Part shown: positions 3,563 to 6,354 of the stretch, one piece after another
Layout of the letters: every line of letters begins with the position of its first letter
How positions within the stretch are numbered: the stretch's first letter is position 1
Assembly: GCA_017612805.1 (NCBI GenBank)
Contig: JAGAFD010000007.1
Location: 1 to 64,000 of the forward strand
Direction of reading: 5' to 3'
Source: Bacilli bacterium
GTDB lineage: Bacteria > Bacillota_I > Bacilli_A > RF39 > UBA660
Length of the DNA: 64,000 nucleotides
Translations under genes and position numbers: made by a program
The notes under the pieces: model-generated
What the model was told of the DNA's origin: nothing
Databases searched by the model: none
What the model saw: the letters and a program-made list of their open reading frames with translations, nothing else

Positions 3563-3646
3563 TGATGTCTAAAATATCACTTTTAATGTCTAAAAATATT
3601 ATTCAGAAAAGATTAGAATATTTTTCGACTTTTTTAGACATTAAAA
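3563..3646 (+). promoter_or_regulatory. Putative AgrA/LytTR binding repeats upstream of agrB
   Basis: Nine-base repeats TGATGTCTA (3563-3571) and TAATGTCTA (3584-3592) are spaced exactly 21 bp apart, about two helical turns. That matches the imperfect 9-bp repeats with 12-13 bp spacer bound by LytTR-domain regulators such as AgrA. A third, inverted copy follows: 3631-3646 is the exact reverse complement of 3581-3596 (TTTTAATGTCTAAAAA). A TAGAAT at 3614-3619 is a possible -10, which would place the second box over the -35 position. The locus encodes a LytTR regulator, which supports this reading. Confidence 0.6.
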
Positions 3647-3715
3647 ATCCCCTTTCATTGCCCTAATAATCACAAAAAGCTTTTTAAAAATAAGATGTTA
3701 CCAAGAGGTAGCAAA

Positions 3716-4306
3716 ATGGTTTATAAAGCGTATATTAATTTAGTAATGAAGGTTGTGGATAAACTAGATTTTATACACAACAAGAAAAAAGTCAAAAAGT
3801 TTTTTATGTATTTTTATTATACCGTTACTAAGTTGATAGTTGTTTTAATAGTTAATTACTTAATTAAAACCTTTAAAGAAGCATTAATCCTCGCAATAAC
3901 ATTTATGTTATTAAGACAATTTGCAACAGGAATCCATTGCAACAAAAATTATCAATGTTGGATTTTAACTCTTACGGTATTTATTTTATTACCGATATTA
4001 ATTAAACATTTTGATTTAAATAACTTACTATATTTAATAAGCTATCCAATATTTATTATTAATTATTTATTATTTGCGCCTAACGATACTTATAAACATC
4101 CTTTTACCAATAAAGTTAAAAGAGTTATTTATAAAGTTGTAGGCGTAATAATAGTTACTATTTTTTATGCATATTCAATTAATAATATAAACTATGTAAC
4201 AGAAGCAATGTTTTATAGCAGCTTAGTTACATTAATATCATTTCATCCAATAACATACATTGTTTTTAAACAAAGCTATTATAATTATCACTTGATAAAA
4301 AAATAA
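3716..4306 (+). CDS. agrB: AgrB-type membrane peptidase, processes the autoinducer peptide
   Basis: AgrB is a membrane cysteine endopeptidase that cuts the C-terminal tail from AgrD and closes the (thio)lactone ring. The 196-residue protein is hydrophobic with several membrane segments. It has the catalytic pair in the motif GIHCNKNYQCW: His74 and Cys81, 7 residues apart as in Staphylococcus aureus AgrB (His77, Cys84). It also has the family signature APNDTYKHP. The ATG at 3716 is preferred because AGAGGT stands about 6 nt upstream. The gene is followed 18 nt later by the tiny agrD and both end at a shared terminator. agrC and agrA lie convergently downstream. Confidence 0.9.
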   Translation: MVYKAYINLVMKVVDKLDFIHNKKKVKKFFMYFYYTVTKLIVVLIVNYLIKTFKEALILAITFMLLRQFATGIHCNKNYQCWILTLTVFILLPILIKHFDLNNLLYLISYPIFIINYLLFAPNDTYKHPFTNKVKRVIYKVVGVIIVTIFYAYSINNINYVTEAMFYSSLVTLISFHPITYIVFKQSYYNYHLIKK

Positions 4307-4324
4307 AAAGAAAGGAGATTTGCC

Positions 4325-4375
4325 ATGAGATCTAACATTATTTCATTCTGGTGGTTTGATCCAGAAGAAGAATAA
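4325..4375 (+). CDS. agrD: Minimal AgrD-like autoinducing peptide precursor, 16 residues
   Basis: A strong AAAGGAG sits 7 nt before an ATG that opens a 16-codon frame, MRSNIISFWWFDPEEE. It follows agrB directly and ends just before a terminator. The layout mirrors AgrD: a short exocyclic tail (NII), a five-residue SFWWF matching the Ser/Cys-x-x-x-hydrophobic lactone rings of known peptides, then an acidic Pro-containing tail (DPEEE) like the conserved DEPEVPEE recognition tail. The N-terminal amphipathic leader of about 20 residues found in usual AgrDs is absent. It cannot be added, because the in-frame codons back to the agrB stop at 4304-4306 contain no start. The lactone would be Ser-based. 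Function is inferred from context and motif. Confidence 0.75.
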   Translation: MRSNIISFWWFDPEEE

Positions 4376-4404
4376 AAAAGTAAGCTTAATGCTTACTTTT
4401 TTTC
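4374..4404. terminator. Bidirectional terminator between agrBD and agrC
   Basis: GTAAGC (4380-4385) pairs with GCTTAC (4391-4396) around TTAAT, flanked by an A run on the left and a T run on the right. It can terminate both converging transcripts. The agrC stop codon lies in the loop. Confidence 0.85.
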
Positions 4405-5651
4405 TTAGGTATATATATAGTTACTTTAAATAAATCATTTATAATAGATGCTTTGATTTTTAAAACCGCATTACTAAAAATTGAGTACAACCCATAACCA
4501 CTATCACGATTTTTTGTAGAATAGTTTTGAACACCTAGTTTCTCCATATCAATATCATTTCTAAAATTATTTACCACATCGATATATTGACTATGTTCAT
4601 CTTCATAAAAATTTATTAAAACAATACCATCATCTTTCGGAACTGCTTCAACAGCATTAGTTAAGACGTTACCAAGTATTTTATATAAATAAAGATAATC
4701 TCCTTGATTAATATTCAGTTCTTTTTTTGATAATTTATTATTGATAATTACATTGTATTTCCGATCATTTGTAAGTGTTAAAACATTGCTAAATAAATGT
4801 ACTAGTGAAGATGGTAATTCTTCAAAATAATCAATATAGTACATATCTTTATTATAGTTATCCAATAACTTATTAATTATTTGATCAGTCTTTTTATTAC
4901 CAACTTCTTTTATTAATAAAAGATCATATTTCAAATTATGATTATATCTTTTGAAATCATGTAAATATCGCATTACTTCATCATTCTTAATTTTTAAATT
5001 ATTAATTTCTAGTTTTTCTTTGTTACTCATTCTAAGTTGCCTTATATATACATATAATCCAAAAAAGATAAATAATAAAAGAATTACAAATAAAAAGTAA
5101 ACATTATAATAACGATTGTATGTTGCAATAAAGTTTAAACTACCTACCGCAATAAATAACAAAATGATTGATATTAAAAAGATGATTGAAAAATTAGTGT
5201 TTAAATCTTTTTTAACAATCTTTCTAATTATATAAACAATATTATTCATGATTATTAAAATAAAAGTTGAAGTTAATTTTAAAACTAAGTATTCAAAATC
5301 GTTTAAATCTCCCACTTTTAATAATAATCCAAAAATAATACCTAAAAAGATTTCAGTTATTATTACTATTATGAATTCTTTAAAATATGCTAAAATTGAT
5401 TCCTTTAATTTTAAACTTGATGTTATATAAATAAGGGTAATAGATGAAGTTATCACGATAAAGTTTTTAACTAATAACATATTTAAATAATCAGCAAAGG
5501 ATATACCAATTATAAACAAAATAAAGATAACTATATTTCTTTTATTATTTATAAAACGGTAATTAGAAAGCCGCTGTAACGCAGATATAATGCATTCATA
5601 GGTAAATAACATAATACCAAAATGAAGAATATGATATAACACACTATTCAT
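4386..5651 (-). CDS. agrC: AgrC-type membrane sensor histidine kinase
   Basis: This is the sensor for the agr peptide. The first 205 residues or so form several membrane segments. Next come a coiled linker and a histidine phosphoacceptor region with HDFKRYNHNL (His about 231). The C-terminal GHKL ATPase domain shows the N box NVLTNAVEAV and the G box GYGLYS, ending in a basic KKKSKH. This is the layout of AgrC/HPK10 kinases. Its start overlaps the 3' end of the upstream regulator gene, so the two are co-transcribed and probably translationally coupled. The ATG at 5651 is likely; an upstream ATG (5660) and a TTG (5657) also lie close to GAGG, so the start is uncertain by up to 3 codons. Confidence 0.9.
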   Translation of the reverse strand: MNSVLYHILHFGIMLFTYECIISALQRLSNYRFINNKRNIVIFILFIIGISFADYLNMLLVKNFIVITSSITLIYITSSLKLKESILAYFKEFIIVIITEIFLGIIFGLLLKVGDLNDFEYLVLKLTSTFILIIMNNIVYIIRKIVKKDLNTNFSIIFLISIILLFIAVGSLNFIATYNRYYNVYFLFVILLLFIFFGLYVYIRQLRMSNKEKLEINNLKIKNDEVMRYLHDFKRYNHNLKYDLLLIKEVGNKKTDQIINKLLDNYNKDMYYIDYFEELPSSLVHLFSNVLTLTNDRKYNVIINNKLSKKELNINQGDYLYLYKILGNVLTNAVEAVPKDDGIVLINFYEDEHSQYIDVVNNFRNDIDMEKLGVQNYSTKNRDSGYGLYSIFSNAVLKIKASIINDLFKVTIYIPKKKSKH

Positions 5652-6354
5652 AATCAACATTGCCTCGATATTTCTTTGATAATAAGTCTACTTTTATACC
5701 ATTATCTAACAAGAAATAATTTTTTGACCAATAATAGTTATTAACTCGATTCTTATTAACAATACATGCACGATGAACTTGTGCAAAGCGTTTATCAAGT
5801 AATTTAGATGCATCAGTTAAAGAAATGGGCAAAGAGAAGCGATTCGTATCAGTGACGATATATATCTTTCTTTCATTAGTATCACGATAAATATATAAAA
5901 TATTTTTATAAGAAATATGTAAATCAATATCACGATTTGAATATAAGAAGAAGCCGGTATCAAAGCCTTTATTAATAATTAATTTAATATCATTAATTAA
6001 CTTGGTTTCAAAACCTGGTATTTTATCTATAAAATCAGAAACATTAAAAATATTGCGATATACTGTTTCAAATAAACCATCATGACTAGTAATCATAATA
6101 ATATTACTATAAATATCATGTTGCCTTATTTGATAAGCAATATCTATTCCTGATTTATTTCCAGGTAGTTCAATATCTAATATATAGACTTTATTAATAG
6201 TTTGATTATTAATCAACGATAATAATTCTTCATCAAACTTAGTGAAGAAATGAAAATTTATATCATAATTATAATCTATGGTTCCGGTTAATATTGCACT
6301 TCTAATACGCTGTACTACTTCGCTATTGTCTTCAACTATAATAAAATCTAACAT
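5644..6354 (-). CDS. agrA: AgrA-type response regulator (REC-LytTR)
   Basis: This is the cytoplasmic partner of the AgrC-type kinase. Residues 1 to about 125 form a receiver domain with acidic residues VEDN near the start and the phosphoacceptor Asp60 in YILDIELPG. Residues of about 135-232 form a LytTR DNA-binding domain (FAQVHRACIVNKNRV is typical). Such regulators bind paired 9-bp repeats, and matching repeats lie upstream of agrB. AAGGAG lies 7 nt before the ATG. The order agrA-agrC on one strand and agrB-agrD on the other, converging, differs from the single agrBDCA operon of staphylococci. Confidence 0.92.
   Translation of the reverse strand: MLDFIIVEDNSEVVQRIRSAILTGTIDYNYDINFHFFTKFDEELLSLINNQTINKVYILDIELPGNKSGIDIAYQIRQHDIYSNIIMITSHDGLFETVYRNIFNVSDFIDKIPGFETKLINDIKLIINKGFDTGFFLYSNRDIDLHISYKNILYIYRDTNERKIYIVTDTNRFSLPISLTDASKLLDKRFAQVHRACIVNKNRVNNYYWSKNYFLLDNGIKVDLLSKKYRGNVDYE

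Follow-up and report, generated by a model that had tools for sequence, protein, structure and literature searches.

Two genomes of one genus carry, directly adjacent to agrB, a conserved frame of 16 or 17 codons at the position of agrD, less than half as long as is normal for this precursor. We consider it fairly probable (roughly 70%), from comparisons of sequence, that this genus has a working agr system whose AgrD has been cut down to the signal itself plus an acidic handle of five residues. AgrB, AgrC and AgrA can each be assigned to a known family, and the short AgrD lacks two defining features of AgrDs, the leader and the full tail; the product of the short frame most likely works like AgrD.

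The short agrD frame and its genomic setting

In the window, that is the whole stretch of 64,000 nucleotides that was analysed, the locus comprises:

3565-3595, + strand: twin direct repeat ATGTCTAAAA-N11-ATGTCTAAAA with a 21-bp period, present as an exact twin in the sister genome (L134:2609-2639) and probably the operator at which AgrA/LytTR controls agrB
3716-4306, + strand: agrB (PF04647), transmembrane cysteine protease/cyclase, with 195 codons and the stop region, and a second candidate ATG at 3695
4312-4317, + strand: AAGGAG, the ribosome binding site for the short frame, identical in the sister
4325-4375, + strand: leaderless agrD, MRSNIISFWWFDPEEE, with a homologous frame in the sister
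4358-4372, + strand: acidic tail DPEEE, five residues, presumably the part cut off by AgrB (EGEEE in the sister)
4374-4402, no strand: terminator-like hairpin common to the convergent agrBD and agrCA (similar hairpin 3' of the sister's frame)
4386-5660, - strand: agrC-like sensor histidine kinase with a GHKL ATPase domain (PF14501, 34.8 bits, cut-off 22)
5644-6354, - strand: agrA-like response regulator with receiver and LytTR domains (PF00072, 35.7 bits; PF04397, 43.5 bits; both above cut-off)

The short frame runs for 16 codons from an ATG at 4325 to a stop at 4373-4375, with AAGGAG seven bases upstream. The TAA of agrB (4304-4306), 18 nt away, lies in the same frame, and no ATG, GTG or TTG stands between the two. 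Frames of at least 16 codons preceded by a strong SD arose in 0.9% of dinucleotide shuffles of the window spacer and in 2.1% of those of the sister spacer. The initial annotation, whose coordinates are all right, had described this frame, with its strong ribosome site and its place between agrB and a terminator, as a leaderless agrD of which no longer in-frame version exists; these points are borne out by the sequence and recur in the sister.

The sister genome (G001; MAG contig JAEEKO010000020.1, 'Bacillales bacterium isolate Tb.RUG.195'; locus L134) is the only available one of the same genus besides the window's own, and both are draft assemblies. Its AgrB is 54% identical to that of the window and is followed, 54 nt after the agrB stop, by the frame MRDSSVFFFYWYEGEEE (17 codons, GTG start, L134:3404-3457), with synteny, ribosome site and terminator as in the window. 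Aligned without gaps from their C-termini, the two peptides reach a BLOSUM62 score of 40, which was equalled in 1 of 200,000 shuffles. The initial annotation had set conservation of the short frame against that of some other small gene near agrB: it is the short frame that the sister keeps, and no other small gene. A search 5' of agrB likewise gave no frame with a ribosome site common to both genomes. Contig scans for further sister species returned just JAEEKO01 again, and searches of the family and the class gave no other AgrB of the genus type.

A longer AgrD, made from a rare start codon, by readthrough of the agrB stop or from an unlinked gene, is a highly improbable alternative. It would draw on the fact that, in both genomes, the agrB stop lies in the reading frame used by the short agrD, but the sister has a second in-frame stop, a TAA at L134:3374-3376, which blocks a longer AgrD and rules out a readthrough fusion with AgrB, and in both genomes the ribosome site is placed at the short start. 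An upstream start is ruled out in both genomes. No family-type or orphan conventional AgrD was found elsewhere in either genome; the family AgrD profile found nothing at all in that of the window, a weak test at 16 residues.

The genus AgrB profile has a match in 235 of the 386 family genomes that were sampled, and we inspected the DNA 3' of agrB in about 190 loci, calling AgrD where the contig was long enough. Nearly all of them have one conventional AgrD, which gives about 170 distinct precursors. These measure 32-45 residues (median 39), of which the leader takes about 22 and the tail, mostly DEPxxPxSLIK-like, 10-12. One apparent outlier of 19 residues (L154) is a 40-residue AgrD whose ribosome site was overlooked by the filter. 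Because all these AgrDs are conventional and just the two genus members among the loci inspected have a short one, the leader and most of the C-terminal tail have, to judge from this distribution, been lost in this genus.

Neither frame has room for an amphipathic N-terminal leader. A charged tail of the usual length, with its conserved proline and hydrophobic residue, is also absent, DPEEE and EGEEE keeping the acidic character only. At L192 and L221 (genomes G419 and G335), AgrD has D-P-V-E-C-P in place of D-E-P, with a proline directly after the first acidic residue as in D-P-E of the window. The window peptide, padded with a partial repeat, was not matched by Pfam PF05931, a weak test at 16 residues in which a conventional family AgrD also fell below cut-off. 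No RNA feature of Rfam was matched.

The set of components of an agr circuit is complete, with a GHKL kinase and a LytTR regulator encoded on the opposite strand, convergent to agrBD, and a tandem putative operator 5' of agrB. In each of the two genus genomes, the exact ATGTCTAAAA pair is confined to the region upstream of agrB. One other exact TGTCTAA pair occurs in the window genome, inside a PFOR gene, and a wider agr regulon, sought by means of the operator, was rejected with just agrB and one match within the PFOR gene. Across the family, TGTCTAAA pairs with up to two mismatches and a period of 21 are present in 18 of 188 upstream regions, against 0-2 at periods of 19, 20, 22 and 23 and 0-1 for control motifs; loci with twin TGTCTAAA boxes 21 bp apart 5' of agrB include L050, L066, L080, L089, L152 and L188, among others. 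Since tandem sites spaced by two turns of the helix are suitable for a LytTR regulator, we read the twin boxes as an AgrA operator, which is probably family-wide. The circuit looks live because the agrB promoter keeps these boxes, and autoinduction through the putative operator looks preserved. Before agrB, the window starts with what we take to be a secA-hpf-cspA segment, the genes being named from their translations.

AgrB and the loss of a conserved N-terminal motif

Two features within AgrB were located through an alignment of 189 AgrBs:

3797-3808, + strand: residues 28-31, K-F-F-M in place of a near-invariant Y-G-L-E; identical in the sister
3914-3958, + strand: catalytic set Arg67 (3914-3916), His74 (3935-3937) and Cys81 (3956-3958)

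The window genome has one AgrB, which matches PF04647 (peptidase C75) with 83.8 bits (cut-off 23) and whose start was picked by its ribosome site and by the start of the sister gene. The catalytic residues are all present in both genus members; among the other 187 AgrBs, Arg67 is found in 185, and His74 and Cys81 in every one. By position they correspond to R70, H77 and C84 of S. aureus (PMC10196373).

The motif Y-G-L-E is taken here as an AgrB feature from its conservation in the 189-AgrB survey: in the other 187 AgrBs, Y is found in 99%, G in 95%, L in 86% and E in 84%. At this site both genus AgrBs read KFFM, which occurs in 0 of the 187 others, and the stretch is free of gaps in the alignment together with the T-x-T-K that follows it. 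This replacement in both genus AgrBs, with the catalytic residues retained, is newly found here by alignment. The initial annotation mentioned neither the shortened C-terminal tail nor the matching change in AgrB.

Because residues 23-49 form the first long helix in an AlphaFold2 model of AgrB (pLDDT 95), with a short N-terminal helix before it, the YGLE site is predicted to lie near the start of that long helix. The N-terminal segment up to the motif has a net charge of +6 in the window and +5 in the sister, against a commonest family value of +1. A search of the PDB for structural relatives of AgrB gave none that was credible and no solved AgrB-like structure.

Leader and YGLE are linked through the loss of both in one evolutionary event, which hints at a docking role for YGLE but does not establish it. 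The loss of the motif could also belong to a general drift of the divergent genus AgrBs, which have lost more conserved columns than nearly all other AgrBs of the family (13 of 32, versus 19-20 of 32 in more distant AgrBs of the class). In both, two near-invariant alanines are changed; one follows the catalytic His (A75) and the other belongs to P-A-D-T (A123). In the more distant class AgrBs, motifs of the YGFE or YGCE type persist, with LGIE in others.

The same observations may be read as decay of the agr locus in a reduced genome, with AgrD left as a truncated remnant and the function of AgrB fading as well. The genome is indeed small (1.05 Mb), leader, tail and YGLE have all gone together, and the number of lost columns points in the same direction. 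Decay is nevertheless improbable: at 54% identity, agrB is open and has all its catalytic residues in both genomes, as are kept the ribosome site, the frame and the terminator, while the operator is an exact twin amid poorly conserved spacer DNA and the similarity of the two peptides is far above that of shuffles.

Two further observations concern AgrB-like sequences. A divergent AgrB-like gene on a prophage-looking contig of genome G075 (L111:1667-2197, - strand) has no YGLE and no conventional AgrD alongside, and is preceded by a membrane ORF of 162 aa ending in NEGCTWWRSKKVIK. The AgrB profile also passes its cut-off within AgrC-sized frames of about 410-430 aa (G172:C1:8184-8534, G170:C9:7895-8209, G134:C71:2745-3062, G036:C2:67402-67719), which reflects either a common composition of membrane helices or a real link between AgrC and AgrB.

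Candidate rings and a possible leader-free mechanism

Two rings can be considered in the window peptide:

4331-4357, + strand: candidate nine-residue ring Ser3-Phe11, in the only nucleophile register common with the sister
4343-4357, + strand: five-residue ring Ser7-Phe11 of the initial annotation, possible in the window

Among the 171 distinct family AgrDs, 162 have their ring nucleophile at -6, counted back from the acidic tail (142 Cys, 13 Thr and 7 Ser, one of these last also having Cys at -7); seven have it at -7 and two at -5. The 13 AgrDs with Thr at this position, mostly after Phe or Tyr (L011, L035, L048, L078, L089, L140, L158, L172, L180, L186, L188, L207, L208), suggest threonine lactones. 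The window peptide carries its serines at -5 (Ser7) and -9 (Ser3), the sister peptide at -8 and -9; positions -7 to -5 of the latter are taken up by Val or Phe.

The five-residue Ser-lactone ring SFWWF that had been predicted is unsupported as stated, the family nucleophile being mostly at -6, and it is not conserved because the sister has no Ser, Cys or Thr at -5. A narrower version, in which the window makes the Ser7 lactone and the sister has switched to a different ring, is possible and rather doubtful. Five-residue rings and Ser lactones are known in staphylococci (PMC3673130, PMC10482373), and Ser replaces Cys in several AgrDs of the family, but family rings are mostly of six residues, a five-residue ring is impossible in the sister, and Ser7 falls opposite Phe8 of the sister in the C-terminal alignment. 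With two sequences only to go by, Ser at -9 would give a ring of the size of enterococcal GBAP, which is described as exceeding the usual AIP ring by four residues (PMC3673130).

A linear product is also conceivable, though unlikely: only the acidic tail of a leaderless AgrD would be removed, by AgrB or some other peptidase, and the aromatic N-terminal peptide would be the signal. This would agree with the strongly aromatic core and with a sister that has no nucleophile from -7 to -5, the positions at which almost every family ring begins; however, AgrB keeps its full catalytic set, Ser at -9 is present in both peptides, and the AgrB chemistry of characterised systems yields a ring (PMC10482373).

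For a working leaderless system with a cyclic product, we propose a precursor made of the signal (11-12 residues from the Met) and the five-residue acidic handle. AgrB, through Arg, His and Cys, would cut before Asp12 (Glu13 in the sister), and the new C-terminus would be joined to a Ser hydroxyl as a lactone. The aromatic core (FWWF; FFFYWY) would enter the membrane interface unaided and the EEE tail would contact basic residues of AgrB; because the core would partition by itself and the tail would dock, the amphipathic leader and the protease that later removes it may both be dispensable. The matched change in AgrB would be that of YGLE into a lysine-flanked hydrophobic stretch. Once exported, the signal would be read by AgrC, and AgrA would act on the twin boxes 5' of agrB. 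A loss of the MroQ-like CPBP protease (PF02517) gives no evidence either way, there being one gene in each genus member and at least one in all 60 genomes searched.

On the Wimley-White scale, the six residues before the tail come to -6.1 kcal/mol in the window, a value reached by 6 of 170 other cores, and to -7.1 in the sister, reached by 1 of 170, the family median being -3.5 kcal/mol. Together with the basic segment of AgrB, these energies would fit a self-partitioning core and an acidic EEE handle. A more specific lock-and-key scheme, which we hold only tentatively, is that YGLE, at the start of the first transmembrane helix, holds the leader and that both were lost together. The leader-free substrate would then be recognised through its aromatic core and EEE handle, and would yield a nine-residue, GBAP-sized lactone with no leader-removing protease.

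In favour of a working leaderless system we count the sister frame, the contrast with the conventional AgrDs of the family, KFFM, the catalytic residues, the operator, agrCA, the core energy and the charge of AgrB. Against it we count the loss of what is essential in S. aureus, the presence in two draft genomes only, Ser at -9 as the sole common ring position, and the divergence of the AgrBs. For S. aureus AgrD, essential roles are reported for the leader, the length of the tail, E34 and L41 (PMC10482373); the short AgrD retains a single known recognition feature, its first acidic residue.

Comparison with known agr systems

A review names the AgrD leader essential (PMC10482373), and a search of the open-access literature turned up no AgrD described as leaderless or very short. 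A naturally occurring pair of AgrB and AgrD in which leader and YGLE are both missing would be a minimal system for AgrB-AgrD recognition, and points to a motif for mutation. A precursor of 16 residues is easily overlooked by gene callers and profile searches, and similar signals elsewhere may therefore have been overlooked.

With staphylococcal agr, the locus has in common the order agrB then agrD, the R/H/C residues of AgrB, an acidic residue directly after the core, a GHKL kinase, a LytTR regulator and a tandem-repeat putative operator upstream. It differs in its AgrD, which has 16 residues in the window, no leader and a tail of five, whereas that of staphylococci has 40-50 residues, a leader and a tail of 14-15; in an AgrB without the conserved N-terminal motif; and in agrCA being convergent to agrBD.

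The conventional loci of the same family are closer, with the same AgrB family, the agrB-agrD order, a strong ribosome site, an aromatic core and, in part of them, the twin TGTCTAAA operator. What sets them apart is the length of their AgrD, 32-45 residues including a leader of about 22 and a tail of 10-12, together with a nucleophile placed at -6 and an AgrB that keeps YGLE.

A Ser lactone, a candidate here, is the point in common with FsrB/FsrD and GBAP of Enterococcus faecalis; according to its published description, fsrD is set apart by lying inside the fsrB sequence in another frame and by encoding a conventional propeptide. In the AIP of Staphylococcus intermedius/pseudintermedius, Ser takes the place of Cys as ring nucleophile (PMC3673130), as may be the case here, but their AgrD has a conventional leader, and the position of its five-residue ring is not conserved in the present genus.
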